The notes under the pieces were generated by a model. The model saw nothing but the letters and a program-made list of their open reading frames with translations, was not told the DNA's origin and ran no database searches. This document shows positions 2,504 through 26,351 of a stretch of DNA of 40,657 nucleotides, in pieces (the stretch's first letter is position 1; each line of letters opens with the position of its first letter). Made by a program: the position numbers and the translations under genes. Origin of the DNA: Eubacteriales bacterium (GTDB taxonomy: Bacteria; Bacillota; Clostridia; Oscillospirales; Oscillospiraceae). The stretch is from contig JAUNND010000013.1 of the NCBI GenBank assembly GCA_030531595.1, forward strand, positions 1 through 40,657, written 5' to 3'.

Positions 2504-3234
2504 TAAATTCTGTCGAATGGAAAAACCTCTGTGTCGCCTACGGTGACACAGAGGTTATACATAATTTGTCGCTGAATATTGAAAACGGCGAGTTCGTAAC
2601 TATCATCGGCACCTCCGGCTGCGGCAAGACAACGCTGATGAAAACCGTCAACGGTCTTGTTATGCCGAAAAGCGGCACGGTCATAACGCTCGGCGAGGAT
2701 ACAGCCAGAACCGACCTTACCTCTCTGCGCCGCAAGATCGGCTATGTTCTGCAGGGCAGCGTGCTTTTTCCAAACATGAACGTTGAAAAGAACATCTCTT
2801 TTGTGCCGCGTCTTATCGACCCGAAGGACAAGGCAGGCGCGGCGGAGACTGTCGCCAGACTCATAAAGCTCGTCGGGCTTGAGGAGGATATGCTCAAACG
2901 CTATCCCGATCAGCTCTCCGGAGGTCAGCAGCAGCGTGTCGGCATTGCCCGCGCCCTTGCAGCCTCACCCGCACTTTTGCTGATGGACGAGCCGTTCAGC
3001 GCCGTGGATGAGATCACAAGGCTCTCTCTCCAGGACGAGATAAAGCGCATTTACCGGGAGACCGGCGTGACGGTCTTATTCGTCACGCACGATATCCGCG
3101 AGGCCGTGCGACTCGGCACGAAGCTGCTTGTGATGGATAAGGGCGTTTTGCAGCAGTACGGCACACCGGAGGAGATACTGTCCTCTCCCGCAAATGAATA
3201 TGTCGAAAAGCTTGCGCGAAGAGCAGGCGAATAA
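2500..3234 (+). CDS. Osmoprotectant ABC transporter ATP-binding protein (TTG start)
   Basis: A 244-residue ABC ATPase with Walker A GTSGCGKTT (about residues 37-45), signature LSGGQQQRVGIARAL, Walker B ALLLMDEP and switch His in FVTHD. It would energise the preceding permease. OpuCA proteins usually carry C-terminal CBS domains (about 380 residues in total) that sense ionic strength; this one ends right after the ATPase domain, so that control is absent. The TTG start overlaps the stop of the binding-protein gene (TTGA), typical of translational coupling. Confidence 0.88.
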   Translation: MINSVEWKNLCVAYGDTEVIHNLSLNIENGEFVTIIGTSGCGKTTLMKTVNGLVMPKSGTVITLGEDTARTDLTSLRRKIGYVLQGSVLFPNMNVEKNISFVPRLIDPKDKAGAAETVARLIKLVGLEEDMLKRYPDQLSGGQQQRVGIARALAASPALLLMDEPFSAVDEITRLSLQDEIKRIYRETGVTVLFVTHDIREAVRLGTKLLVMDKGVLQQYGTPEEILSSPANEYVEKLARRAGE

Positions 3235-3240
3235 AAGAAA

Positions 3241-3271
3241 ATCGGACATCCCGACGGATGTCCGATTTTTT
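3241..3271. terminator. Bidirectional intrinsic terminator
   Basis: A perfect 11-bp stem (3241-3251 with 3256-3266) with loop CGAC is followed by T5 on the plus strand and by a T-rich run on the minus strand. It lies between the convergent ABC ATPase and AbrB-like genes and can serve both. Confidence 0.85.
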
Positions 3272-3275
3272 GTGA

Positions 3276-3521
3276 TCATTTGTCGTCCTTGAGTTTTCTG
3301 ATGCAGCTGCGGCAGACATTCTTTTCCTTGTAAAGCGTAAGACCGTTTTCCGAACCGCAGAAAATGCAGCTCGGCTGGTACTTGCGAAGAATAACATTGC
3401 TGCCGTCAACATATATTTCCAGAGAATCCTTTTCGGCTATTCCGAGAGTCCTACGCATTTCAATAGGAAGCACAATTCTGCCAAGCTCGTCAACTCTGCG
3501 TACAATTCCTGTAGATTTCAT
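3276..3521 (-). CDS. AbrB/SpoVT-family transcription regulator with C-terminal zinc ribbon
   Basis: An 81-residue protein. Residues 1-45 (MKSTGIVRRVDELGRIVLP onward) form the swapped-hairpin DNA-binding domain of AbrB, Abh and SpoVT. The C-terminal part holds two Cys pairs (CIFC and CRSC), which look like a small zinc ribbon. The start is the ATG at 3521, because AGGAGG lies just upstream; an open frame extends further back to 3584 but lacks such a site. Relatives control the transition state and sporulation. It is divergent from spmA-spmB, which fits a role in that programme, though the target is unknown. Confidence 0.85.
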   Translation of the reverse strand: MKSTGIVRRVDELGRIVLPIEMRRTLGIAEKDSLEIYVDGSNVILRKYQPSCIFCGSENGLTLYKEKNVCRSCIRKLKDDK

Positions 3522-3563
3522 ATTCTTTTCCTCCTGATATTCTACAAAAAAGCCTTTTTGATT

Positions 3564-3591
3564 ATTATACACATTAATCAGCATATGTCAA
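3564..3591 (-). promoter_or_regulatory. Promoter for the AbrB-like gene
   Basis: On the minus strand TTGACA (3586-3591) and TATAAT (3564-3569) are spaced by 16 bp, about 45 bp upstream of the ATG at 3521. Confidence 0.7.
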
Positions 3592-12492: not shown

Positions 12493-15186
12493 TTATGCGT
12501 CGTACTCGGTACGGAAGATAACCTCGTCCTGGATGGGCTTACCGATCTCACACCAGTACTGGGTGAAGCCGGCAACACGAACCATCAGATCACGGTAATC
12601 ATCGGGCTTTGCCTGAGCTTCCTTCAGGACCTTGGAGGAAGTGACGTTGAACTGGATGTGGAAGCCGCCCTTACGCATGTAAGCACGGTAAACATCAAGC
12701 AGCTTGTGAGTACCCTGAGTGCCCTTGATTGCAGAGGGGTGAATCTTTACGTTCATCTGGCTGTTCTGGCACATTGCATGGTCGTAGCAAGTAGCAGAAG
12801 TGAACAGAGCGTAAATACCGTTCTTGTCGGTGGTAGGTGCGGGGGACATGGAAGCGTCTGCGTAGGTGGTGCCGCAGAGACGTCCGTCGGCGGTTGCCAG
12901 AGTGATTGCACCCTGAGGACCGTGAGTGGAGACGGAGATCTGGCACATATAGTACTGCTTGCCCATGTAGGAACGGAGAGCCAGCATCTTGGGCAGCATT
13001 CTCTCTTCGTAATCGTAGAGAATGTCGTCTGCGTAAGGATCAGCGTTGCCGTACTTAGGAGCATTGACGCAGTCGGCGAAGATCTTCTCGTACTTGGGTG
13101 CATTCTCGGTTGCCTCGCGGCGGTCGGGAGAGAAGACACCGGTCTCGAAAGCGGTCTTGAAGCCGAAGTTGTTGAACATTGCATCCTTCATCTCTTCGAG
13201 CGTGTACTTCTTCTCGTCGTATACGTTCTTCTTGAGGGAAGCGAGGGAGTTGATGAAGTTGATGGTGCCGCAGGACTCGAAGTTGATGGTGCCGTTGTAG
13301 CGTGCGCCAAGGTGGCTCTGGTTCTGACCGACCTTGAAGCAGTCTGCCTTCAGCAGGGAAGCCCAAACGATGGGGCAGATCTTGCGGTGGGTATCCATCT
13401 GCAGGTTGTTCATGCGGTTGGAGACCTCAAGCAGCTCCTGGAGGTAATCGTTGTAGTAAACATCGAGCAGCTCTTCATAGGTGTCGAGGCTCTTGTTGTG
13501 GGGCTGGAAGACCTGGATGCCGGTGCGCTTATCGTAGCCGTTGGTGAGAACGAGCTCGAGCAGCTTGGGCATACCGGTGAAGTGGATACCGGTACCAGCG
13601 GTGGGGCCTGCGCCGCCGGGGATCATGGTGACCTTGCCGTTGTAGTGCAGAGGCTGGAAGCATCCGGGAGAGGACTCAAGGCAGCCGCCGGGGCACCATG
13701 CACGTGCATCATAAATGGTCATGCCTTCGGGATGGTAGTGACGGAGCATGTAGTTCATGCCGCCCTGGTTGTTCATGATTGCGGGGTAGCCGAGACCGAG
13801 CTTGATGCAGCTTGCGACCTTGAGGAGGAAGTCCTCGGGGGTCTTTTCATCATACAGCAGGGACAGGGTGGGCTGAGTGGTCTTGCCGCGCATACCGGCT
13901 TCGACAATGAGGTACTCCAGAGGAGTAACAGCAGTCAGACCGTTGTAGCCAAGACCGCCGATGGACAGGTTGTTGAAGGTGTTGCCGGAAAGAACGCCGC
14001 CGGTGACGCCGGAGGAAGCGAAGCACTCGATAGCGGTGATCTTAATACGGTACAGCTCGAGGAGCTCTATGACTTCTTCATCATTGGTGACGCCCTCTTC
14101 GATGTCCTTTTCATAGAAGGGCTGAAGGATCTGACCCAGACGACCGATGGACTGGCCGGAGTGGGGGTCTTCATTGACAACGCCGTAGTGGCACATAAGG
14201 GTGAGGTTCAGAGCCTGACGGAAGGAAGCGGGCTGCTTGTGAGCGATGTGGTGAGCGACCTCTGCGATGTCGAGGTACTCCTTCTTCTGCTGCTCGTCTG
14301 CTTCACGTGCTGCGAGGAACTCTGCGCGCTTTGCATAGTTCTCGATCCACTTGGAAACGCCAAGAGCGATTTCCTTGCAGGCCATGTAGTAGTAGCCGCG
14401 GCTCATGCCGAGAACGCCGTCGTCGCCTGCTTCACCAAGGGTCTCTGCGATCTTCTCATCGCACAGCTCGACGATCTTGTCAAAGCCGTACTCGAGGGGC
14501 AGATAGTAGTTGATGACTTCACGGCCCTGGGGGATTGCCCAAGAGTCGAACATGACCAGAACGGAGTTACGATAGCCGGCCCACTTCTGATAGTCGGGGC
14601 GGGTCTCAGCAAGACGTGCGGAAACGCGCTCAACAGAGCCGTTGTCCCAGTACTTTGCGACCTTTACGAGGCAGGGAACTTCTTCGCGGCGAAGACCGAA
14701 CTTCTGTGCGATAGAAACGATGTTGCCATAGTCCTTGGTTACGTTACCGCCGCCGGCACCGACAACGGAAACTGCGTCTGCTGCGGACACGGGAGGAGCA
14801 TCGACACCGGCCATCATGGCCTCTGCTGCTGCGTTGAAGAAGGATGCGTCAACCCAGGGGAAGCAGAATGCGCCACGGAAGTTACGGGTCTTGTTACCGA
14901 AGATCAGCTCGCCGGGAAGAATGGTCGGGGTCATATGGGACAGAGCAGCTGCCTCAGACTTTGCACGACGAATCTCGGTGATGTCGCCTTCGTTTGCCCA
15001 CCAGGTACGGTTGTACCAGTAGGGGTACTCCATATCGATGGAGTTCTTCATTGCGTAGTAGATGTTGATCAGCTTGGTAAAGCGGGGAGAGGGTTCTTTG
15101 ACCTCGGTATCAGCAAAATCGGTTACTTCGCTGACGTCGAGTCCGCGTCTCTTCAGGATTTCCTGAATTTTGGCTTCGTTATCCAT
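12493..15186 (-). CDS. hpdB: 4-Hydroxyphenylacetate decarboxylase, glycyl-radical subunit
   Basis: An 897-residue glycyl-radical enzyme that decarboxylates 4-hydroxyphenylacetate, from tyrosine fermentation, to p-cresol. The glycyl-radical site is RVAGFTQYW, with Gly873. The thiyl Cys502 lies in GGCLES with Glu504 two residues later. That Cys-x-Glu pair and Glu637 match the catalytic residues I recall for the C. scatologenes enzyme (Cys503, Glu505, Glu637, Gly873). Length also agrees. It is the first gene of hpdB-hpdC-hpdA-MFS, with AAGGAGG before its ATG and a divergent Crp-like regulator upstream. Indoleacetate or phenylacetate decarboxylase is the alternative, made unlikely by hpdC. Confidence 0.93.
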   Translation of the reverse strand: MDNEAKIQEILKRRGLDVSEVTDFADTEVKEPSPRFTKLINIYYAMKNSIDMEYPYWYNRTWWANEGDITEIRRAKSEAAALSHMTPTILPGELIFGNKTRNFRGAFCFPWVDASFFNAAAEAMMAGVDAPPVSAADAVSVVGAGGGNVTKDYGNIVSIAQKFGLRREEVPCLVKVAKYWDNGSVERVSARLAETRPDYQKWAGYRNSVLVMFDSWAIPQGREVINYYLPLEYGFDKIVELCDEKIAETLGEAGDDGVLGMSRGYYYMACKEIALGVSKWIENYAKRAEFLAAREADEQQKKEYLDIAEVAHHIAHKQPASFRQALNLTLMCHYGVVNEDPHSGQSIGRLGQILQPFYEKDIEEGVTNDEEVIELLELYRIKITAIECFASSGVTGGVLSGNTFNNLSIGGLGYNGLTAVTPLEYLIVEAGMRGKTTQPTLSLLYDEKTPEDFLLKVASCIKLGLGYPAIMNNQGGMNYMLRHYHPEGMTIYDARAWCPGGCLESSPGCFQPLHYNGKVTMIPGGAGPTAGTGIHFTGMPKLLELVLTNGYDKRTGIQVFQPHNKSLDTYEELLDVYYNDYLQELLEVSNRMNNLQMDTHRKICPIVWASLLKADCFKVGQNQSHLGARYNGTINFESCGTINFINSLASLKKNVYDEKKYTLEEMKDAMFNNFGFKTAFETGVFSPDRREATENAPKYEKIFADCVNAPKYGNADPYADDILYDYEERMLPKMLALRSYMGKQYYMCQISVSTHGPQGAITLATADGRLCGTTYADASMSPAPTTDKNGIYALFTSATCYDHAMCQNSQMNVKIHPSAIKGTQGTHKLLDVYRAYMRKGGFHIQFNVTSSKVLKEAQAKPDDYRDLMVRVAGFTQYWCEIGKPIQDEVIFRTEYDA

Positions 15187-15558
15187 GGTTTTCCTCCTTG
15201 ATTTTTGAGTAAAAAATACTTCGGTTTAGATGTCGATGTTATTTTATCTTTTTTTTAACTTTTGGAGTAGTGCATTTTTCACGTTTTCATGCATTTATTC
15301 ATACAAATTTCGTTTTGTGTGCAATTTGCGCTATGAATTTTTGGCTATTTTTATATAATTATCCTATAAACTGTGCATTTTGCGCTTGGCTGTTTAAGCG
15401 GTTTTGTGTATTGTTGACATAATTTTGTGTGACTTTTTATTAACAATCTATTCGTCTTTCGTTTCTTTCTGTAATTTTCTGGTATCTTTTCACGGATCGC
15501 TTTTGCCTTGCTTTTTTCATTATGCAACACTATCTTTAGTCGGAAGAAGGTGTGTCCT
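15187..15558. promoter_or_regulatory. Divergent control region between hpdB and the Crp-like regulator
   Basis: This 372-bp AT-rich region carries no gene. Two near-identical 15-mers, TGTGCAATTTGCGCT (15318-15332) and TGTGCATTTTGCGCT (15372-15386), lie 54 bp apart, about five helical turns, in the same orientation. Further TGCATTT copies occur at 15271 and 15290, and TTTTGTGT occurs at 15313, 15402 and 15423. On the plus strand TTGACA (15414-15419) has only a weak -10. A minus-strand GATAAT at 15358-15363 lacks a good -35 and is preceded by the second 15-mer, as in an activator-dependent promoter. Confidence 0.5.
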
Positions 15559-16215
15559 ATGAAGCTCCAAAGCACTTCCATATTTCCCTATATCAAGGAT
15601 AACCCCGAGCTTTGTGAAACCGTCAGCTTTCAGCGCAATTCATATATAATAAGAGCCTCCGACGTCGACAGCTATGTCTGGTATCTTGTTGAAGGTCAGG
15701 TAAAGGTCATCGCCAACGGCAGCAACGGCAAATGTATTGTGGTGGATATGATCGACGAGGATAATTTTGTCGGGCATCTGTCCAATTACTATGAGCAGAA
15801 TTTCTACTGTGACTCTATCGCCGTCACCAACTGCACGCTTGTGCGTATACCGATCAACAAATTCAACGAGATGATGAAAGGGCTCGAATTTTCGAGACTG
15901 TTCTTCATGAAAACGAGCGCCCGGCTGTACATCATGTACAAGATGGATCTTGTCAACCACCTGTTCACGCAGCAGCAGCAGTTTGCCTACTATCTTCTCA
16001 GCAACGTCAAGGGCGATATCTGTTATATCCAGAGCCTTTACAGGATCTGTGAATTTCTGCGTGTCAGCCGCCGCAATCTCTACAATCTCATAGATAAATT
16101 CATGGCGGAGGGTTATCTTGAGCGCCTTGACGACGGCAAGATACACATACTGGATTTCGACGCCATGCGGGAAATTCAAAAGCCCGTTGCCGACTTCATG
16201 CACAACAAAATCTGA
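15559..16215 (+). CDS. Crp/Fnr-family transcription regulator, likely of the hpd operon
   Basis: A 218-residue protein with a cyclic-nucleotide-binding-type beta-barrel (about residues 20-115, with YLVEGQVKVIA), a long dimer helix, and a C-terminal winged helix-turn-helix (about 155-200, with FLRVSRRNLYNLIDKFMAEGYL). No Cys cluster for FNR-type iron-sulfur binding is evident. I start at ATG 15559, which has AAGAAGG upstream, and not at the earlier in-frame TTG 15508. Divergent placement next to hpdB suggests it controls that operon, perhaps in response to an aryl acid; the effector is unknown. Confidence 0.82.
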   Translation: MKLQSTSIFPYIKDNPELCETVSFQRNSYIIRASDVDSYVWYLVEGQVKVIANGSNGKCIVVDMIDEDNFVGHLSNYYEQNFYCDSIAVTNCTLVRIPINKFNEMMKGLEFSRLFFMKTSARLYIMYKMDLVNHLFTQQQQFAYYLLSNVKGDICYIQSLYRICEFLRVSRRNLYNLIDKFMAEGYLERLDDGKIHILDFDAMREIQKPVADFMHNKI

Positions 16216-16246
16216 GGGCAAAGCTCCCGCACTGTGAAAAGTTTAC

Positions 16247-16275
16247 TTTATTAATTTAATTAAATATTGTATAAT
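16247..16275 (+). promoter_or_regulatory. Promoter before the trigger-factor-like gene
   Basis: A clean TATAAT at 16270-16275 has a weak -35 (TTTATT at 16247-16252, 17-bp spacing) in AT-rich DNA. The transcript would start near 16282. Confidence 0.5.
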
Positions 16276-16310
16276 GGTGCAGAGAAATACCCATACATCT
16301 GCGTCGGTGA

Positions 16311-16351
16311 CCATGCGCGGCTTAACGGGTAAAGGCAGCGCGTGGTTTTTT
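16311..16351 (+). terminator. Leader hairpin with U-run, attenuator-like
   Basis: CCATGCGC (16311-16318) can pair with GCGCGTGG (16338-16345), with one G-U pair, followed by T6. It lies after the promoter and 28 bp before the ATG at 16380, so it would end a leader RNA of about 70 nt unless prevented. No known riboswitch class was recognised. Confidence 0.5.
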
Positions 16352-16379
16352 ATCTTCATTCTTTTTTCGGAGGCAGTTC

Positions 16380-17252
16380 ATGAAATATTCTGTTGAACAT
16401 ATAGACGAGCATTTTATCCGCTTTATCTTCTCTTTCCCCGCGGACGAGTACCACAAAGCCATTGAGGAATATGTGGAAGCCCACAAAAAGGAGTACCTCA
16501 GGCAGGTCGCAAACCAGAACAAGGCAAAGGCCGTCGGTTTCTTCCGCCCCATCATCAACGATCTTGTCAGCAAGGCATACACCAAGGCCGCCAATGAGTA
16601 CCCCGAGGAGATATATTACACTCCCGAGATAAGCATCATGCAGGATGACGCAAAGCGCGGGCTTATCTGCGCGGCAAAGGTCCAGGTCAGCCCCGTTTTC
16701 ACTCTGGGCGACTACAAGGCACTGAGACTGACCGACAGTGAGCTTGCCGAGGTCGAAAAGGAAGCCGCCGGTGTTCCCGAGCCGAACCGCGCCGACACAC
16801 GCCGCTACATGATCCAGACCATCCTCGTGGGCAAGCTCTCTGCCATCACCGAGGGTGAAGTACCCGACACCATGGCCGGTGAGCGTGCTTCCGAAATGGT
16901 CGCCGCTTTCGAGCAGCACCTCGGCAACAACGGTAAGAAGATAGAGGATTATTATAAGGAATGTCAGACCAACGAGCAGGAGCTTTACACCGACTTTGCA
17001 AAGGAAGCCGTCAAGCAGCTCCATACCCGCCTTGCCCTTTTAGAGCTGGCAAAAGCCGAGGGACTGACGGCTACCGACGAGGAATACGAAAAGGAGCTCA
17101 AGCGCCTTTCCGAGATGTACATGATGCCCATGAAGCGTATGCGCGAGATATTTGCAAAGCGTGAGGGCTCCAACGTCCGCCGCGACATATCCATATCCAA
17201 GGCCGCCGACTATCTGGCAAAAATGGCTGACGAGCTGTACCCGATGAAATAA
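16380..17252 (+). CDS. Trigger-factor-like protein lacking the PPIase domain
   Basis: A 290-residue acidic-basic helical protein. Its start (MKYSVEHIDEHFIRFIFSFP) and the segment VSPVFTLGDYKALRL resemble the N-terminal domain and domain boundary of trigger factor. The rest (residues about 130-290) resembles the helical C-terminal chaperone domain. The central FKBP-type PPIase domain is absent; full-length trigger factor is about 430 residues. The ribosome-docking signature GFRKGK is also not seen; GFFRPI stands in that region. GGAGG lies before the ATG. A chaperone role off the ribosome is a fair guess; it could also have another function. Confidence 0.65.
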   Translation: MKYSVEHIDEHFIRFIFSFPADEYHKAIEEYVEAHKKEYLRQVANQNKAKAVGFFRPIINDLVSKAYTKAANEYPEEIYYTPEISIMQDDAKRGLICAAKVQVSPVFTLGDYKALRLTDSELAEVEKEAAGVPEPNRADTRRYMIQTILVGKLSAITEGEVPDTMAGERASEMVAAFEQHLGNNGKKIEDYYKECQTNEQELYTDFAKEAVKQLHTRLALLELAKAEGLTATDEEYEKELKRLSEMYMMPMKRMREIFAKREGSNVRRDISISKAADYLAKMADELYPMK

Positions 17253-17308
17253 TAAATCCGGCGGGAAGCCGGTAGTTTCAAAAAAACAACACAGAAAGGA
17301 AAAACCAA

Positions 17309-18172
17309 ATGTACGAAGGAGTTTACGCACCCATTCCCGATGCCGGCGCATTTCTGGCGAGACTCGGTCTTGATCCCGACGATTACCGCAAGTCATTGCA
17401 CCCCGAGCTGCCCGACTCTCCCTCCCCTTTCAGCGCACCCCACGTCAAGGAGTCTCTGGATAAGCTGGTCGAGGCGCACCTGATGACCGTCCCCTTTGAA
17501 ACGCTCGATATTTTCGATCTGCACAAAGAGGTCTCTCTGGAAATTCCCGCTCTGTTTGAAAAGATCGTTGTAAAACGCAGAGGCGGCTTCTGCTTTGAGG
17601 TCAACGCCCTGTTCATGGCACTTTTAGAGGCTCTCGGCTTCAAGTGCACTCCCGTCGCCGTCCGCGTTCTGTTTGAAGGTGACTTCCCTACCACCGGTCA
17701 CCGCTCCACCATCGTCACTCTGCCCGACGGCACCCGCTGCGTCTGCGACGTCGGCTTCGGCGGTCCCACTCCTCTGGGCGCGACCTATCTCGACTGCACC
17801 GAAGTCCAGAATTCCGGCAAGCTCTCCTTCCGCTTTGAGCACCGCGAGGACGGTCTGTACCGCTTCGTACAGGTTCTCGACAACGGCGAGATCTTCCCGC
17901 TACTTCTGTTCTCCGACAGAGAATATCCCGTTATCGACTTCATCGCGCTGAGCGTTTACATGAGCCGTGGCGATACCGCCCGCTTCAATAACGAGCGCGT
18001 TCTCAACCTCCTGCGTCCTCAGGGCAGCGCCGCCATGATCAACGACACACTGCGTCTGCACGACAACGGCGTTCTGACCGAGCTTGAGCTGAGCACTCCC
18101 GAGGAACGCAAGGCGGCTTACGTCAAGTACTTCGGCATCCCCGCGGAAAGCCTTACCGAGATTCCGGGCTGA
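17309..18172 (+). CDS. nat: Arylamine N-acetyltransferase
   Basis: A 287-residue acetyl-CoA-dependent arylamine N-acetyltransferase. The Cys-His-Asp triad is clear: Cys95 in RRGGFCFEVN, His131 in TGHRSTIV, and Asp147 in CDVGFGG. These enzymes acetylate aromatic amines and hydrazines, including drugs such as 5-aminosalicylate in gut bacteria. It lies 56 bp after the trigger-factor-like gene, with AAAGGA upstream of the ATG, so the two may be cotranscribed. Confidence 0.93.
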   Translation: MYEGVYAPIPDAGAFLARLGLDPDDYRKSLHPELPDSPSPFSAPHVKESLDKLVEAHLMTVPFETLDIFDLHKEVSLEIPALFEKIVVKRRGGFCFEVNALFMALLEALGFKCTPVAVRVLFEGDFPTTGHRSTIVTLPDGTRCVCDVGFGGPTPLGATYLDCTEVQNSGKLSFRFEHREDGLYRFVQVLDNGEIFPLLLFSDREYPVIDFIALSVYMSRGDTARFNNERVLNLLRPQGSAAMINDTLRLHDNGVLTELELSTPEERKAAYVKYFGIPAESLTEIPG

Positions 18173-18976: not shown

Positions 18977-18990
18977 ACTTGAGGTTTGCT

Positions 18991-19548
18991 ATGAAGACTG
19001 AAGAAATCTTTAAACAAAGTGACGCGCTTTTCAGAAGCGGTGAATACGAAAAGGCGGGAGAGTTTCTTGAACAGAAGTCCAATGAAGCCTTCGAGTGCGG
19101 TCAGCTTGACGTTGCGCTTTCGGTGCTCAACGAGCTTACAGGCTGGTACCGTTTCAGCAAGCGCATGGACGAGGCATGGGCCTCCGCCGAAAAGCTACTG
19201 GAGCTTGTGGACTATATGCAGCTCTGGGGTACGCTTGAGGGCGCAACGGTGCTGCTTAACGTGGCGACGGTCTACAAAGCCTCCGACAAACAGGATATGG
19301 CACTTAATCTGTATGAAAAGGTCGAGGCGATCTACCTCGACAAGCAGGTCACCGATGACAGGATCGTCGGGCTTTACAACAATATGTGTGTTACCTGCCT
19401 TGAACTGGGGCAGAATATGAGAGCGTACAAATACGGTCAAAAGGGTCTGGATTACGCCAAGTATTGCGATGATATCCGCCCCGACAGACTGGAGACCATG
19501 AAATACAACGCGGCTGCCGCAAAACAGCGGCTTGTTAAATACGGCTGA
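18991..19548 (+). CDS. Tetratricopeptide-repeat protein upstream of the selenoprotein cluster
   Basis: A 185-residue all-helical protein with degenerate TPR units, for example residues about 8-30 (ALFRSGEYEKAGEFLEQ), 38-70, 80-115 (ATVYKASDKQDMALNLYEKV) and 120-150 (NNMCVTCLELGQNMRAYKYG). TPR proteins act as binding scaffolds. I start at ATG 18991, with GAGG just before it. It is followed at 51 bp by three paralogous small genes, the last a likely selenoprotein, so it may be their partner. Function is unknown. Confidence 0.75.
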   Translation: MKTEEIFKQSDALFRSGEYEKAGEFLEQKSNEAFECGQLDVALSVLNELTGWYRFSKRMDEAWASAEKLLELVDYMQLWGTLEGATVLLNVATVYKASDKQDMALNLYEKVEAIYLDKQVTDDRIVGLYNNMCVTCLELGQNMRAYKYGQKGLDYAKYCDDIRPDRLETMKYNAAAAKQRLVKYG

Positions 19549-19599: not shown

Positions 19600-19926
19600 A
19601 TGTTAGACAGAAACGCATTCATGAAGGATCTTGAAGAAGCAAAGTGCGATCCCAACCCCTGCGTTACCGAGTTTTTCCTCAATCAGACCTTCCAGAATTT
19701 ACAGGAGGAGCTGAAAAATCCCGATCTCACCCGCTACGGCTATTTTCAGGGCGGCACGGACACCGAGGAATTTGAGGAGCTGCTGAGAAGAAACAAGATA
19801 AACCTCATCAAGGGCGACATCTACCTCGTGCTTGACGAGCTGGAGAAGTTCTACGCCGTGCAGAAGCCGGAGCTGGTCACTCCCGTACACAACGTGAAGA
19901 TGACCTTCAAGCAGGTCTCCGACTGA
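19600..19926 (+). CDS. Paralog A of a three-member small protein family (no Sec)
   Basis: A 108-residue acidic protein of a family I do not recognise. It starts MLDRNAFMKDLEEAK and is clearly related to the two genes that follow: all three begin M-[LIV]-DR-x2-F-x2-D. They share a middle aromatic/glycine motif (here YFQGG, residues 48-52) and end in a helix around LVLDELEKFYAVQKPELV. There is no signal peptide or membrane segment, so it is cytosolic. The position corresponding to Sec in paralog C is not Cys here. AGGAG lies before the ATG. Confidence 0.8.
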   Translation: MLDRNAFMKDLEEAKCDPNPCVTEFFLNQTFQNLQEELKNPDLTRYGYFQGGTDTEEFEELLRRNKINLIKGDIYLVLDELEKFYAVQKPELVTPVHNVKMTFKQVSD

Positions 19927-19951: not shown

Positions 19952-20299
19952 ATGATAGACAGAATAGGATTTTTAGAAGACCTCAAGGAACTGAAGGAAA
20001 ACGGTGATCCGATACTGATAGAGTATTATCTCAATCAGCGTTTCATCGAAATAAAGGACGATAAGGACGACAGCGGCCGCGATTACTTCTCCAAGGAGTT
20101 TGAGGGGACCGCAAACACGCCCGAATTTGTCGCCATTTTGCAGAAAAAGAGAGAATTTGAAAAGAACGACGATATTCTTTTCGTTCTCAACGAGCTTGCC
20201 GATTTCTACGCGCAGACAAAGCCCGAGCTTGTGGATGCGGTGAGAACGGTCATGAAGGAATTTGAGCCTAAGGGATTTGACCCGAAGGATCTGGTTTAA
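19952..20299 (+). CDS. Paralog B of a three-member small protein family (no Sec)
   Basis: A 115-residue protein, 25 bp after paralog A, beginning MIDRIGFLEDLKELKE and containing FVLNELADFYAQTKPELVDAV, which aligns with paralog A and paralog C. The middle motif is degenerate (KEFEGTANTPEF). It has no Cys at all, so any redox role in the cluster would rest on paralog C. The start follows CGGAGAACGG. Function is unknown. Confidence 0.8.
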   Translation: MIDRIGFLEDLKELKENGDPILIEYYLNQRFIEIKDDKDDSGRDYFSKEFEGTANTPEFVAILQKKREFEKNDDILFVLNELADFYAQTKPELVDAVRTVMKEFEPKGFDPKDLV

Positions 20300-20319
20300 T
20301 ATTAAAAGGAGGGCACAGC

Positions 20320-20658
20320 ATGGTTGACAGATACCAATTTGCCGAGGACGTCAGGCAGTTGAAGGCTCAGAACAAGCCTGAACAGCTTGAAAGCTACCTC
20401 AAAATGCAGCTCGGCTCCATTCAGGAGTACATTCAGTTCGGGAAGACGGGCTGTTGAACGGGCGGTCTTTTCCAGGGTGGAGAAGTAAACAGAGAATACG
20501 AAGAAAGCCAGCGCAAGAGCCGCGAGGAAGGTCTGAGATTTGAGATCATTCAGGTTCTTGAAGAATTAGACGCCTATTACGAAAAATATAACCCCATGTT
20601 CCTTTTCACCGTGCGTCCGACACTGGAGGCAATGAAAAGACAGCAGCAGGGTCAATAA
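20320..20658 (+). CDS. Candidate selenoprotein: paralog C with in-frame TGA at codon 46
   Basis: The frame from ATG 20320 (AGGAGGG at 20307-20313) runs MVDRYQFAEDVRQLK to GKTGC, meets TGA at 20455-20457, and continues TGGLFQGG to QQQGQ and TAA at 20656-20658, 112 residues in all. The part before TGA aligns with the N-terminal halves of paralogs A and B. The part after it (GLFQGG, then IIQVLEELDAYYEKYNP) aligns with their C-terminal halves, so the frame is under constraint on both sides. Reading TGA as selenocysteine gives a Cys45-Sec46 pair. A SECIS-like hairpin follows at the right distance, and selA and selB lie 2.4-6 kb away. A recent nonsense mutation is the alternative. The function is unknown; a thiol/selenol redox role is inference. 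Confidence 0.75.
20467..20485 (+). promoter_or_regulatory. SECIS-like stem-loop after the in-frame TGA
   Basis: CTTTTCC (20467-20473) pairs with GGAGAAG (20479-20485) over 7 bp including one G-U, with apical loop AGGGT (20474-20478). Sixteen bases separate the TGA from the loop, and a G is the second loop base. As I recall them, both fit the bacterial SECIS rules (G in the first two loop positions, 16-37 nt spacing); the fdhF loop AGGUCU is similar. SelB would bind here. Confidence 0.7.
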
Positions 20659-20665
20659 GTAAAAC

Positions 20666-20706
20666 AAAGCATTTCATTTTCGGTTTTCCCGGGAATGAAA
20701 TGCTTT
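20666..20706. terminator. Bidirectional terminator between the selenoprotein and Se operon
   Basis: A 13-bp perfect stem (20666-20678 with 20694-20706) is followed by TTTTCTT on the plus side and TTTTAC on the minus side. It ends both the paralog cluster and the selA-thiF-like operon. Confidence 0.8.
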
Positions 20707-20709
20707 TCT

Positions 20710-21324
20710 TTATAATTTATATGAAACTATTCTGCCGTGCTCCGCTTCCCTGCCGCAAAGATACTTTACGCACAGCGCACTCTGCATGGCGCCGCACATG
20801 GCGACGGTGAAATAAGGGGCGTTTTCAGTCTTACTCTCCGGCAGAGCGTCACCCCTGTATAAAATCGCCGCGTCCGCCTGCCAGCCGTGGGGACAGCCGT
20901 ACACAAAAGGAATATTCAGCGCGTCGCATACTTTTTTGACTGTCACACGGGTATCGTGATTCTCACAGCCGTCGATCACGATATCACAGCCGTTAATAAG
21001 CTTTTCGGCGTTGGTCTCGGTGAGCTTTACAGAGCTTGGCGTGAACACAACATCCGTATTGACGGCAACGGCACGGGCAAAGGCTGCATCCGGCTTCGGC
21101 CAGCCGATCATGCCGAGATCGCATAAAAGCTGATTATGCAGGTTATCTTCGTCAAATCGCCCGCCGTCGGCACAGCGTATTTCCTTCACGCCGAGGCGCA
21201 GAAGCATTTCGATCACCGTGCCGGAAGCCCCGCCGCAGCCGGCAATAAAGACCCGCTTTGTGCGAAGCCTCATGCACTCAATGTCCGTAAGTGCGCCGAT
21301 GTTGCCGATATATTTCAGTTCCAT
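20710..21324 (-). CDS. ThiF/MoeB/HesA-family adenylyltransferase-like protein of the selenium operon
   Basis: A 204-residue protein with the nucleotide-binding fold of E1-like enzymes: VFIAGCGGASGTVIEMLLRLGV (split near residues 23-44) and ADGGRFDEDNLHNQ for ATP and target contact. Family members adenylate the C-terminal glycine of small sulfur carriers. The CxxC zinc pairs of MoeB are not obvious. I start at ATG 21324 because AAGGAG lies just upstream; the open frame extends much further but overlaps the previous gene. As last gene after selA-selB-yedE-yedF-DUF3343, it probably serves Se/S transfer, but its substrate is unknown. Confidence 0.78.
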   Translation of the reverse strand: MELKYIGNIGALTDIECMRLRTKRVFIAGCGGASGTVIEMLLRLGVKEIRCADGGRFDEDNLHNQLLCDLGMIGWPKPDAAFARAVAVNTDVVFTPSSVKLTETNAEKLINGCDIVIDGCENHDTRVTVKKVCDALNIPFVYGCPHGWQADAAILYRGDALPESKTENAPYFTVAMCGAMQSALCVKYLCGREAEHGRIVSYKL

Positions 21325-21364
21325 TTGCTGCTCCTTATAATACTGCTGACGGAAAAGCAGCTCA

Positions 21365-21601
21365 TTATTCTTCGTTTTCAAAAACAAGCGCATATTCTCC
21401 GTTTTCGGAGGAATAGACGGCTTCCATATCCTCGTCCGCCCATTTAGAGTCGAACGCTGCGGCAAACCGGACACAGGTACCGCAGGAAGCGGAGAGCTTC
21501 CTGGGTACCGGCGCCAGTGCCGCCTCTTTGCCGAGTTTTTCAAGCTTTCGCTGAAATCTCAGCGCACCCAGATGGGTGTGAAAGGTGGCTATGTTTTCCA
21601 T
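21365..21601 (-). CDS. Putative Se/S carrier protein (DUF3343)
   Basis: A 78-residue protein of the DUF3343 family, described in Pfam as putative Se/S carrier-like. It begins MENIATFHTHLGALRFQRKL and has a conserved CGTC pair (residues about 40-43), a likely site for carrying selenium or sulfur. Its ATG shares one base with the yedF stop (TAATG), so the two are coupled. This pairing with YedF is common in selenium-using Clostridia. Confidence 0.8.
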   Translation of the reverse strand: MENIATFHTHLGALRFQRKLEKLGKEAALAPVPRKLSASCGTCVRFAAAFDSKWADEDMEAVYSSENGEYALVFENEE

Positions 21602-21808: not shown

Positions 21809-22885
21809 TTACTCCTCCACTTTCCGGCAGTTTGCAGCGCCGATAATAAACGTAACAACAAGGCAGACGATCACGGCGATCTTGCCGTTGAGGGTCGTAC
21901 CCTTGCCGGAGGACGCGAGACCGAAGTTGTGGCAGAATGCCGCACCGACGGTCATGCCGAGTACGGCGAGGGCAGAGTCGCTGGAGCCGGCACCGGCGAG
22001 AACGAGCTGGCGCAGAGGGCAGCCGCCGAGAAGGATGGAGGCAACGCCCACAAGGAACATACCGAGGAACGCCCAGATGAAGTTGCCGTCGGCAAGGGCG
22101 TTATATGCAACGGGCTGATCTGCAAAGCTGAAGGTGAATTTGCCGGTGATAAGATTGCCGACCAATACAGCGGCGAATATTGCCACAAAGCCCCACAGCA
22201 GGTGGAAATCCTTTAACATGAAAGCGTCACGGATGCCGCCCGCCATACACAGACGGGACTTCTGAGCGAGTGCGCCGATTACAAGACCGATGATAAGTGC
22301 CATTGCTATGGGTGCGTGCTTGGAGCCGGGAGCCTCGGTGGAGAAAGCTAAAAGTGCGGGGAAAGCGAGAAGAAGGACAAGCAGACCGATGTTGATTGCG
22401 GGAAGTGCAAAGCCTTCGATGGTGGGAACGTTGTAGGAACGCTTGAAGGTAAAGCCTTTGTTGAGAAATACTGTTCCGACGCCGACACCGGCAACAAAAC
22501 CGACAAGACCGATGATGGCGTTGCCGTCACCACCGCCGAGACGGATGACCATACGCAGAGGGCAGCCGAGGAACATGAGTGCACCGACCATTACGCAGAA
22601 GCCGAGGACAAAACGGCTGACGGGTGCGGAGCCGCCCTTTGCCTTGAACTCACCGCCGATAAGCGCCATAATCATGGAGCCTAAAACAATACCGATCACT
22701 TCGGGACGGACATACTGAACAACGGGTGCTGTGTGGAGCTTGACGCCGCCTGCGATGTCGCGGATGAAGCAGGCGATGCAGAAGCCCATGTTGCCGGGGT
22801 TGCCGAAAGCAACAAGAACAACGGATGCGATACCGACGGCAAGACCGGCGATAATAATAAGAAGGTTGTCTTTAATTTTAGACAT
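21809..22885 (-). CDS. yedE: Selenium-metabolism membrane protein YedE/FdhT
   Basis: A 358-residue protein with about ten helices and two related halves. Each half contains a GCPLR motif (LGCPLRMVIRLGGGDGN; GGCPLRQLVLAGAGSSDS) and a Cys plus RD motif (CIACFIRD; CMAGGIRD). This is the YedE/YeeE (thiosulfate- or selenium-transport) fold, with Cys residues lining the path. I start at 22885 (MSKIKDN), with GAGG upstream; an upstream extension to 22987 covers two RNA hairpins and is not credible. It is fourth from the end of the Se operon, and a 164-bp gap separates it from selB. Confidence 0.88.
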   Translation of the reverse strand: MSKIKDNLLIIIAGLAVGIASVVLVAFGNPGNMGFCIACFIRDIAGGVKLHTAPVVQYVRPEVIGIVLGSMIMALIGGEFKAKGGSAPVSRFVLGFCVMVGALMFLGCPLRMVIRLGGGDGNAIIGLVGFVAGVGVGTVFLNKGFTFKRSYNVPTIEGFALPAINIGLLVLLLAFPALLAFSTEAPGSKHAPIAMALIIGLVIGALAQKSRLCMAGGIRDAFMLKDFHLLWGFVAIFAAVLVGNLITGKFTFSFADQPVAYNALADGNFIWAFLGMFLVGVASILLGGCPLRQLVLAGAGSSDSALAVLGMTVGAAFCHNFGLASSGKGTTLNGKIAVIVCLVVTFIIGAANCRKVEE

Positions 22886-22922
22886 ATTTTCATACCTCAA
22901 ATATATATTGCGTTTCTTTATC

Positions 22923-22993
22923 AAAGGAGCAGCCATCCTTTTAATAAATCGCGCTTTATAATTAACGGCAAAGTCGGGAGCAGCCATCCCGAC
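22923..22993 (-). ncRNA. Twin hairpins with identical loops in the selB-yedE leader
   Basis: Two stem-loops follow each other: 22973-22993 (GTCGGGA arm, 7 bp) and 22923-22941 (AAAGGA arm, 6 bp). On the transcribed strand both present the same 7-nt loop TGGCTGC, and both are flanked by GGA/TCC pairs, though their outer stem sequences differ. That pattern, with stems varied and loop kept, suggests a selected RNA element 38 bp ahead of the yedE start. Confidence 0.55.
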
Positions 22994-23049: not shown

Positions 23050-24957
23050 TTATTTAAGAGATTTTTTTAATAAGACACGTGAGTCACCGACAAGCTTAGA
23101 GGCGCGGCAGACATCAAAATAATCAAGATACATCTGCGCGAATTTTCTTGAAACGCCGAACGCCGTGCGGAAATCGCCGATGGCGACAGTATCGGAGTTT
23201 TCAAACATGGAGACAAACAGATCAAACGCCTGCTTGCAGTATTTGGCGTGGACGGTGACATTCGGGTTGAGGGCGACAAGTATGCCGTCCTTTATCATCC
23301 TTGTCATGACCTGCTTGCAAAGCTTCTGTTTGAGACCGAATATTTCCATCGTGTCCTTGTTGAGCGGTGCTTCAACGCCGCATTTGAGGAAGTAATCCTC
23401 AAGATCCTTCTGCATTGTGACCTGCTCGTCGGAGAAGTTGGTCTGGAAGCTGGCGAGTGCGACGGTGTTGCCGTCAATACGGAGCTTGCCCTTGTCGGCA
23501 AAATAGCTGAGTACAGCATCGGCGTTGCCGGTCGCTTTGGCGAAGGCACGTTCACGCAGCTCACCGAGGCGCATACCCTCCATGAGAGAGTGCTCCTCGT
23601 GGTGCTTTTTCAAAAGCTCCTCCACTCTGTTCCACTGAGTATCAAGCGTCTTTTTCGTGATATACGCGCCCTTTATCTTCACGGTCTCGCCGCTCTGCTG
23701 CACCTGCTGAATGGCGGTATGCACCTGCTTGGCGGACAGTCCGCTGAGTGAAAGCAGTTCATCCTCCTTGATAAGCTCATAGCCCGCGTCATCGATCATC
23801 TGGAACACACGCTCTTTCGGCTCGGAGTCAAGCCGGTCAAGACGGGCGATGGTATCGGGGTCGTTTCGCTTTAAGCGGCGTTTTTTCATGTCAAGGATAA
23901 TGCCGCCGCCGACAGTTGTCATGGGTGAGAAGAAACGGACGATGAAGCGGTCAAGGTTTCTCGCAACGATGGTATCGTCCTTAAAATTGAACTGTGCATA
24001 ACACGTCTCTCCCGGCAAAAGCTCGTTTCTGTCAAGAAGTCTGACCTTGCAGACCTTCTCCTGCGTGCCCTCGTAGAAGTGCAGGAAGGAGTAATTCTTC
24101 ACGACAAAGGGAGAGTCCTTTGTAAGTTCAAGCTTGACGGTTATCTGATCGGTGATAAGCATAGAGTCGGGCTGAGCGATGGTGCAGCCCTTTTCGATCT
24201 CATCCTTATCAATACCGGCAAGGTTGATGGCGACGCGCATACCCGCCTCGACCTCGTCCTGCTTTACATCGTGGTTCTGAAGCTCTCTGACCTTGGCGGT
24301 CTTGCCGTCGGGGTATATCGTGACTTCATCGCCCGGGTGAAGCGTACCGTCAATAAGTGTGCCGGTGACGACCGTGCCGAAACCCTTTACGGAAAATACG
24401 CGGTCAACGGGCAGTCTGAAAGGCTTGTCGGTCGTGCGGGCGGGGGAAGTCTCGACCATTTCAACGATCTTTTCTTTCAGCTCGTCAATGCCCTGTCCGG
24501 TGTAAGAGGACACCGGAACCATAGGAGCGTTCTCAAGGAAGGTGCCCTGAACGGCCTCGGCGATGTCATCCTTGACGACCTCGAGCCATTCTTCATCAAC
24601 CATGTCGCACTTGGTTATGACGATAATGCCGTTTTTTACCTTGAGCATGGAGAGAATATCCAGATGCTCCTTTGTCTGGGGCATACATCCCTCGTCGGCG
24701 GCAATGACCATGAGCACAACGTCAATGCCCGTTGCGCCGGTGAGCATATTGCGGATAAGCTTTTCATGTCCCGGGACGTCAACTATGGACGCGGTCATGC
24801 CGTTCGGCAATACGAGCTGAGCAAAACCGATCTGAATGGTAATGCCGCGCTTCTGTTCTTCCTTCAAGCGGTCTGTGTCAACGCCGGTCAGAGCCTTTGT
24901 CAGACAGGTCTTGCCGTGGTCAACGTGACCGGCTGTACCGATAACTATATGCTTCAT
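23050..24957 (-). CDS. selB: Selenocysteine-specific translation elongation factor
   Basis: A 635-residue GTPase that brings Sec-tRNA to UGA codons marked by a SECIS. The N-terminal EF-Tu-like part has G1 GHVDHGKT (residues 10-17), G3 DVPGH (60-64) and G4 TKCD (115-118). The C-terminal third holds winged-helix repeats that bind SECIS RNA. Length matches SelB (about 610-640). Its ATG overlaps the selA stop by 4 bp. Confidence 0.96.
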   Translation of the reverse strand: MKHIVIGTAGHVDHGKTCLTKALTGVDTDRLKEEQKRGITIQIGFAQLVLPNGMTASIVDVPGHEKLIRNMLTGATGIDVVLMVIAADEGCMPQTKEHLDILSMLKVKNGIIVITKCDMVDEEWLEVVKDDIAEAVQGTFLENAPMVPVSSYTGQGIDELKEKIVEMVETSPARTTDKPFRLPVDRVFSVKGFGTVVTGTLIDGTLHPGDEVTIYPDGKTAKVRELQNHDVKQDEVEAGMRVAINLAGIDKDEIEKGCTIAQPDSMLITDQITVKLELTKDSPFVVKNYSFLHFYEGTQEKVCKVRLLDRNELLPGETCYAQFNFKDDTIVARNLDRFIVRFFSPMTTVGGGIILDMKKRRLKRNDPDTIARLDRLDSEPKERVFQMIDDAGYELIKEDELLSLSGLSAKQVHTAIQQVQQSGETVKIKGAYITKKTLDTQWNRVEELLKKHHEEHSLMEGMRLGELRERAFAKATGNADAVLSYFADKGKLRIDGNTVALASFQTNFSDEQVTMQKDLEDYFLKCGVEAPLNKDTMEIFGLKQKLCKQVMTRMIKDGILVALNPNVTVHAKYCKQAFDLFVSMFENSDTVAIGDFRTAFGVSRKFAQMYLDYFDVCRASKLVGDSRVLLKKSLK

Positions 24958-26351
24958 GCCTTACCTCCCGTAAGCTCCGCCATTGCAGAGGCGATCTCAA
25001 GAATATCATCATCGGTGATGGTTCTTGCGGAAAATACCATATTGCCTTTATTGGTGCGTACTATAATAGGAACTCTGCGCTTTCTGAGTGCTTTCTCAGC
25101 AGCTAAAACATCAAGCCACGGAATACTTACCGCAACGCCCCAGCCCTCAAATTCGGCACCGGGCAGAGAGCCGCCGCCAGCCTCGTCGATAAGGGGCATA
25201 AGCTCACACTCGCACTCCGGCGCGTACTCGGTGATTTTTGCTTTAAGCCTTTCCGCAATCAGCTTACATTCGTCAGCATCCATGGAAAGCATTCTGATAA
25301 CGGGAATTCTCTCCTTGGCAAGAGTGATGTCGGCGCAGTACTGCAAGGTCGCCTCGACTGCGGCGAGGGAGAGCTTGTCAATTCTCAGCATTCTTGTGAG
25401 CTGGTTTTTCTTTATCTTTTCAATATATTCCTTTTTGCCTATGAGTATGCCGCACTGAGCGGAGCCGAAAAGCTTGTCGCCGGAGAAGCACACAACGTCC
25501 GCCCCGTCGCGGAGGCACTGGAACACGGCGTAGCCCTCCTTCACGCCGAGGGTCTCCTTTGTGAACATGAAGCCGCCGCCGAGGTCGTAGAGAAGCATGG
25601 CACCGGCGGCATCCGCGATCTTGCGAAGCTCCGGCACGTCAACGGACTCCGTAAAGCCGTTCATGACAAAATTGCTGGTGTGAACCTTCAACAAAACCTC
25701 CGCGCCGTTTTCACAGGCGCGTTCATAGTCGTAGGGGTGGGTCTTGTTGGTCGTGCCTATCTCCATAAGCTCCGCGCCGGATTCGCGCATAATCTCGGGA
25801 ACTCTGAACGAGCCGCCGATCTCCACAAGCTCACCGCGGGAAACGGCAGTCTTTTTGCCCTTGGCAAGCGTGTTGAGCATGAGAAAAACAGCCGCAGCGT
25901 TATTGTTGACGACCATAGCCGCTTCCGCGCCGGTCAGACGGCAGAGAAGCTTTTCGATATGTGTATAACGGCTGCCGCGAGCACCCTCGTTGAGGTCGTA
26001 TTCAAGGTTGCAGTAGCCCTTGGAAACGCTTGCCACGTGCTCCGCGACCGACTCACCCAGCGGGGCGCGGCCTAAGTTCGTGTGCAGGACGACACCGGTG
26101 GCGTTGATAACACGTTTCAGGGAGTAGTAACCGTTATTGTCAAGGCGGTCAAGAAGCTCCGTCTCGATCTCTCCGATCGACGGTATGGCGTCGATCAGAC
26201 CCTTTAACGCCGCGTTTCTCAGCTCATCCATGTAGGCTGATGCCACGGATTTTATCAATGCCTGCGGGTGGCGCTCCCTTGCTCCCACAAGCGCGGGTCT
26301 TCCGAGAAGCACATCAATTTTAGGTATGCGGCGAAGAATATCATTTCCCAT
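24954..26351 (-). CDS. selA: L-seryl-tRNA(Sec) selenium transferase
   Basis: A 465-residue PLP enzyme that converts seryl-tRNA(Sec) to selenocysteyl-tRNA(Sec) using selenophosphate. The PLP lysine is Lys293 in CFSGDKLFG; VINATGVVLHTNLGRAPL (residues 81-98) is a typical family stretch. Length matches. It is first in the operon, with AAAGGAACG before the ATG and a good promoter upstream. selD and the tRNA(Sec) gene selC, both required, are not in the window. Confidence 0.96.
   Translation of the reverse strand: MGNDILRRIPKIDVLLGRPALVGARERHPQALIKSVASAYMDELRNAALKGLIDAIPSIGEIETELLDRLDNNGYYSLKRVINATGVVLHTNLGRAPLGESVAEHVASVSKGYCNLEYDLNEGARGSRYTHIEKLLCRLTGAEAAMVVNNNAAAVFLMLNTLAKGKKTAVSRGELVEIGGSFRVPEIMRESGAELMEIGTTNKTHPYDYERACENGAEVLLKVHTSNFVMNGFTESVDVPELRKIADAAGAMLLYDLGGGFMFTKETLGVKEGYAVFQCLRDGADVVCFSGDKLFGSAQCGILIGKKEYIEKIKKNQLTRMLRIDKLSLAAVEATLQYCADITLAKERIPVIRMLSMDADECKLIAERLKAKITEYAPECECELMPLIDEAGGGSLPGAEFEGWGVAVSIPWLDVLAAEKALRKRRVPIIVRTNKGNMVFSARTITDDDILEIASAMAELTGGKA

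Follow-up and report, generated by a model that had tools for sequence, protein, structure and literature searches.

Thioredoxin reductase carries a C-terminal Cys-Sec tail, a neighbouring pair that lies in a glycine-rich, flexible stretch. The protein described here, which we call C, resembles this enzyme by analogy of working in that a Cys and a predicted selenocysteine (Sec) are adjacent in a glycine-rich and presumably flexible stretch; it differs in that C is small, has no flavin domain and would carry the pair in a loop in mid-protein. A 2026 review (PMC13188914) ascribes a thioredoxin-like fold to most selenoproteins that have been characterised. Table 1 of that publication includes selenoproteins that share the Cys-Sec pair with C (SaoC, SaoL, KCU-star and the Csac_0668 type), whereas C matches no NCBIfam model, and likewise no Pfam model, up to an E-value of 0.1. 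Closer to C are unnamed proteins with the motif CCCYGYFQGG (P0005-P0008, P0010, P0012-P0019; gene at L020:6001-6315). They belong to the same family, with identities in local alignments of 35% to P0010 (104 aa) and 39% to P0012, but have CCC (CGC in P0013) where C has Cys-Sec-Thr. Four TPR-fused proteins (P0021-P0024) differ from C by their length of about 320 aa, their TPR array and a Cys instead of Sec.

The DNA analysed, referred to as the window, is the whole stretch of 40,657 nucleotides of contig JAUNND010000013.1 (positions 1-40,657) of a Eubacteriales bacterium (assembly GCA_030531595.1). The host genome is a draft of 121 contigs and is 92% complete.

Gene C and its in-frame TGA

The features of C and its two paralogs, A and B, are as follows.

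19600..19926, + strand: A, paralog without the Cys motif (LTRYGYFQGG), ending in a normal TGA
19952..20299, + strand: B, paralog without the Cys motif
20307..20312, + strand: AGGAGG ribosome-binding site of C, read from the sequence, 7 nt 5' of the ATG
20320..20658, + strand: C, predicted selenoprotein gene, 112 aa, motif TGCUTGGLFQGG, Sec predicted at codon 46
20455..20457, + strand: TGA, codon 46 (predicted Sec46), directly after TGT (Cys45)
20467..20485, + strand: bSECIS-like hairpin CUUUUCCA-GGG-UGGAGAAG, loop 17 nt after the UGA
20666..20706, + strand: terminator-like hairpin 3' of the TAA of C, 18 pairs, then a T-rich tail

The reading frame starts with ATG at 20320 and continues after the TGA for 66 sense codons to a TAA at 20656-20658. 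Coordinates and codons are thus as given in a first-pass annotation of this DNA, which had noted an in-frame TGA behind a Cys codon and, as the AGGAGG 7 nt upstream bears out, a strong ribosome site in front of the ATG. Four terminator-like sites were found in the scanned stretch against 3.3 expected, and the hairpin after C is the longest of them. TGA is the normal stop in 9 of the 20 window ORFs with a printed stop, A among them. It is therefore an ordinary stop in this genome, so that a simple reassignment of the code does not apply.

Both sides of the TGA were compared with a family HMM based on 11 further members, with C left out. The part before the TGA alone scored 23.5 bits and the part after it 30.8 bits, while the best of 500 residue shuffles reached 7.5 and 8.1 bits, respectively. 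The latter value agrees with the earlier claim that the downstream part is truly coding. Of the three forward frames, a single one is open 3' of the TGA, and the codon-position GC contents of the post-TGA frame (0.61/0.32/0.52) resemble those of neighbouring genes. Judged by sequence, both halves of C belong to one conserved coding unit. Of the columns that do not vary among the other 11 rows, C retains 7 of 11 on the upstream side and 9 of 19 on the downstream side, and it forms by far the longest branch (4.5) of a weakly resolved family tree, indicating fast divergence.

Relatives of C and the residue at the Sec position

A protein search with C alone gave a single match, P0004. This database protein of 65 residues is encoded on a separate contig of 1045 bases, is 98% identical to C and starts just past the TGA position. 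P0004 entered the comparison as a protein only, so that the DNA evidence comes from one draft genome. A profile search yielded 18 proteins: A (P0002), P0004, P0011 and P0009 (near relatives of A and B), 13 CCC-type proteins, and P0020, which is without the motif part. All CCC-type proteins contain CCCYGYFQG except P0013 (CGCYGYFQG).

The first-pass annotation had proposed to look for orthologs with TGA or Cys at codon 46. If the ungapped register is counted from FQG, the residue facing the TGA is Cys in 12 of the 13 CCC-type proteins and Gly in the remaining one, P0013. BLAST and MAFFT gave the same register when U was written as C. When residue 46 was masked as X, the Cys register was held by the HMM alignment and by four of five MAFFT modes; residue 46 faced Tyr beside a gap in the fifth mode, in a separate L-INS-i run with TPR rows added and in 4 of 7 pairwise alignments (gap costs -11/-1). 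Written as Ser or Ala, it remained in the Cys register in 6 of 7 pairwise alignments with the same gap costs. Because the masked alignments shift in part, a Cys at the place of Sec is likely, but it may slip by one residue.

The TPR-fused proteins have an N-terminal CCxC at the motif. All four show Cys at the TGA position, and opposite Cys45 these rows have His, Cys, Cys and Arg (U written as C in this alignment). Their first 112 residues were linked to the family profile by hhalign with an E-value of 5.4e-6 and a probability of 85.8.

The family is rare in the genomes searched. With C as query it was detected in one genome out of 295 of the order and in two out of 101 of the genus; profiles detected it in 2 of 149 relatives, 2 of 102 genus, 1 of 391 class and 2 of 396 order genomes (host counted throughout). 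A profile search of 400 family genomes gave three matches including the host, one of which we took as spurious.

Among the paralogs, the identity to C is 27-28% for A and 26% for B. The residue facing the TGA position is Thr in A, Asn in P0011 and Asp in B and P0009. It had been suggested that C gained a CU motif which its sisters lack. The absence from A and B was confirmed, whereas the proposed direction of change is probably the wrong way round: CCC occurs in relatives that do not belong to the A/B/C set, which makes it more likely that C retained an ancestral Cys motif and converted it. From these comparisons, A and B probably lost the ancestral motif, and C turned one Cys into Sec. The family tree is too weak for proving the order of motif loss and gain.

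Selenocysteine machinery of the host

The selenium genes of the window are situated on the strand facing C.

21809..22987, - strand: YedE-family putative selenium transporter (TIGR04112, 473.7 bits)
23050..24957, - strand: selB (TIGR00475, 367.5 bits)
24954..26351, - strand: selA (TIGR00474, 525.7 bits)

The selA and selB genes of the convergent operon had been recognised before, and a search for selC and selD in the host had been recommended. Both are present on host contig C57: selC, coding for tRNA-Sec, scored 73.6 bits (above the cut-off) with an anticodon TCA according to ARAGORN, and selD scored 382.9 bits. GrdA and GrdB, also encoded on C57, match selenoprotein models over their full length when TGA is read through. 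The contexts of the in-frame TGAs are CFVU and STUGTC in GrdA and GrdB, respectively, and SAGU in SelD. The in-frame TGAs of these three genes point to further probable selenoproteins in the host and to a pathway that is maintained. Among the 102 genus genomes, selA was above the cut-off in two, with a weak match in a third; in the host it is located near C. The genus relative G337, which carries a CCC protein, had no selA match.

A bSECIS-like hairpin downstream of the TGA

The sections of PMC13188914 on bSECIS elements from which we took our limits specify a loop of 3-9 nt, a stem of 4-16 bp, a G in the first two loop positions, a distance of 16-37 nt from the UGA and a minimum free energy of at most -7.5 kcal/mol. 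The hairpin of C lies within these limits with a 3-nt loop, 8 bp and a distance of 17 nt, its -7.5 kcal/mol being exactly the limit value. It resembles the elements of host grdB (CGUUGC-GGC-GCAACG, 18 nt from the UGA) and host selD (AGCGC-CGGGU-GCGCU, 16 nt from the UGA); no comparable element was detected by the same scan in host grdA.

The hairpins were compared by a home-made score. At a spacing of 16-18 nt and a loop of at most 6 nt, a narrow band that was picked after these elements had been seen, one of the 1500 TGAs in the window (C itself), none of the 512 in L030 and two of the 624 in L029 attained the score of C. At 16-37 nt and a loop of at most 14 nt the counts were 19, 11 and 33 of the same totals. 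Codon shuffles matched the score of C in 2 (narrow band) and 15 (wide band) of 5000 cases. The hairpin was not stabler than dinucleotide shuffles, with z values of -0.10, -0.57 and -0.27 for stretches starting at the UGA. A 71-nt stretch favoured a rival fold with upstream sequence (-17.7 kcal/mol, z -1.87), and in a 101-nt stretch the hairpin of C reappeared (z -0.51).

An AbrB-like ORF (assigned by eye) lies at 3051-3584 on the minus strand of the window, and its TGA is followed by a 14-bp hairpin. This hairpin is likely a false positive for SECIS-like scans.

Gene neighbourhood

C is the last gene of a TPR-A-B-C run. The genes around it are given below.

12493..15186, - strand: 4-hydroxyphenylacetate decarboxylase large subunit (glycyl radical enzyme; NF033715, 1523.5 bits), divergent neighbour
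15508..18172, + strand: Crp-type regulator, trigger-factor-like gene and arylamine N-acetyltransferase, an upstream run in common with L020
18259-18648, + strand: BrnT-type toxin gene (Pfam BrnT_toxin), between the N-acetyltransferase and TPR genes
18979..19548, + strand: TPR protein (Pfam TPR_12) heading the TPR-A-B-C run
20710..21543, - strand: ThiF/E1-like gene (Pfam ThiF), adjoining yedE, selB and selA on the same strand

L020, a contig of G337, carries genes for a Crp-type regulator, a trigger-factor-like protein, an arylamine N-acetyltransferase (named by its likeness to the gene of the window), a TPR protein, DUF4037, DUF4125 and a CCC protein. The run of the window is the same, except that BrnT precedes the TPR gene and that A, B and C replace DUF4037, DUF4125 and the single CCC protein. 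The TPR proteins of the two runs are 41% identical. The host has a DUF4125 gene on another contig (G000:C110:184-768); the ORF that follows it there appears by eye to be an ABC transporter permease-like gene.

A separate observation concerns L032 (G461:C350, 2042-7156). There, a TPR protein with an N-terminal CCSC is encoded directly downstream of TrsS (531.7 bits, above the cut-off). Beyond this pair follow a DVU_1551-like NTP transferase/phosphatase, an XdhC-type factor and a DVU_1556-family methyltransferase. The Cys-motif domain in L032 thus adjoins a cluster whose radical SAM member is listed elsewhere as a selenoprotein.

Predicted structure and probable novelty of the family

AlphaFold2 models computed from 12-row alignments consisted of four helices and no strands, with a pLDDT of 74.3 for C and 82.9 for the CCC relative P0010. 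C is accordingly predicted from its model to be all-helical and may well lack a thioredoxin fold; fold comparison gave no reliable match. The motif falls into a low-confidence stretch of the models (residues 43-55 in C, 39-50 in P0010), which would place the Cys-Sec pair of this helical protein in a flexible loop. C is moreover predicted to be related to the start of larger TPR proteins. This kinship is seen in the profile link to the TPR-fused relatives; no Pfam TPR match was obtained for C or, at an E-value of 0.5, for the 12 members of alignment A7.

The first-pass annotation had stated that the family is not among the known bacterial selenoproteins. Table 1 of PMC13188914 lists 119 prokaryotic families and subfamilies; compared by name, and by model for Pfam and NCBIfam, C is absent from it, and none of the entries is named as TPR-type. 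Neither "tetratricopeptide" nor "TPR" appears in the main text of this publication or of the deep-Sep paper. Together with the missing Pfam and NCBIfam matches these results support the assumption, for a literature searched mostly without subscription papers, that C represents a selenoprotein family outside the published catalogue.

Mechanistic model and alternative explanations

In our model, SelB and tRNA-Sec, helped by the hairpin at 20467-20485, would read the TGA at 20455-20457 as Sec. The product would be a likely all-helical protein of 112 residues with neighbouring Cys45 and Sec46 in a loop, rich in glycine and flexible, that joins two helical hairpins. The pair could then make and break a Cys-Sec (selenenylsulfide) bond, for which the tail of thioredoxin reductase serves as a model, and electrons would presumably pass to partners of the TPR-A-B-C gene run. 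The ancestor is assumed to have had a CCC motif, which A and B would have lost and of which C would have converted one Cys to Sec. We assign a probability of roughly 0.8 to this mechanism as a whole, with C as a selenoprotein with a Cys45-Sec46 pair. Taken by itself, the insertion of Sec at codon 46 is highly probable from the sequence data, because both flanks of the TGA match the family, the full Sec pathway is present, relatives carry CCC and the hairpin lies within the published limits; the earlier proposal of a new Cys-Sec selenoprotein family is supported by these points and by the absence of C from the catalogue. The Sec reading is weakened by the Gly of P0013, the residues of the A/B type, the register shifts, the fast divergence and a hairpin stability like that of shuffled sequences. 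For a redox role of the pair we see about even chances.

The same pair could alternatively serve mainly for binding of a soft metal or of selenium or arsenic species rather than for electron cycling. The CCC or CCxC clusters of the relatives suit such a function, several CU selenoproteins of Table 1 in PMC13188914 are metal-related by name, and the TPR-fused relative in G461 adjoins TrsS, an XdhC-type maturation factor and a DVU_1556-family methyltransferase. However, all that C has of the cluster is Cys45 and the predicted Sec46, and the Cys of the GDPC motif is missing, which leaves few ligands; we regard this selenoprotein variant as possible but somewhat unlikely. A further extension of the model is speculative and, in our view, doubtful: C might found a selenoprotein family on an all-helical, TPR-derived scaffold, in which a Cys-Sec loop on a helical adaptor would serve the surrounding anaerobic enzymes (the glycyl radical decarboxylase, and glycine reductase elsewhere in the genome) as a selenium-based redox or selenium-sensing clip between the TPR partner and a client.

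The remaining explanations dispense with Sec. If the TGA were a true stop, C would be a recent pseudogene or a truncated protein of 45 residues. This would fit its fast divergence, the unremarkable stability of the hairpin and the fact that A, B and their near relatives manage without the motif. We nevertheless consider it improbable, as the frame after the TGA is still coding and family-like, a strong ribosome-binding site and a terminator-like hairpin after the TAA frame the whole gene, and the downstream part is preserved at 98% identity in P0004, which comes from a separate contig of 1045 bases; moreover, the TGA falls in the Cys motif, beside the sel genes, and its hairpin is spaced as in host grdB and selD. 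That hairpin and the adjacent sel genes would also find no explanation if the TGA were a sequencing or assembly error for TGC or TGT (Cys) or TGG (Trp) and C a Cys protein of the CC type. A draft genome of 121 contigs and the Cys at this position in 12 of 13 CCC-type proteins make an error conceivable, but P0004 (known as a protein only), from a separate contig, begins just past the site, as expected with a stop there, too, and we rate an error as very improbable. The start of P0004 directly past the TGA position could finally be taken to mean that there are two genes, an ORF of 45 residues and another one that begins within the frame, past the TGA. As the halves correspond to opposite ends of a single conserved domain and the codon following the TGA in the window is ACG, which is not a start, this arrangement is barely credible.

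Implications

If C is a selenoprotein, the list of selenoproteins would gain both a family and a scaffold, with Sec carried by a small, helical protein related to TPR proteins. C also illustrates how such proteins stay hidden: the sole near-identical database protein that the search returned, P0004, is the piece after the TGA. The Cys-bearing relatives and the gene run with TPR, DUF4037 and DUF4125 genes offer a route to the function of a module that is so far uncharacterised.

The addition would come from a genus in which only 2 of 102 genomes have selA above the cut-off. The other one of these, with 79% completeness, had no match to the family of C. On its contig L029 (G316:C79), the GrdB, GrdA and SelD genes carry in-frame TGAs, and trxB, grdC/grdD-like, selB and yedE genes (named by eye) are located on one strand. 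The selenium gene set is found on one contig in L029 and is split over two contigs in the host genome.
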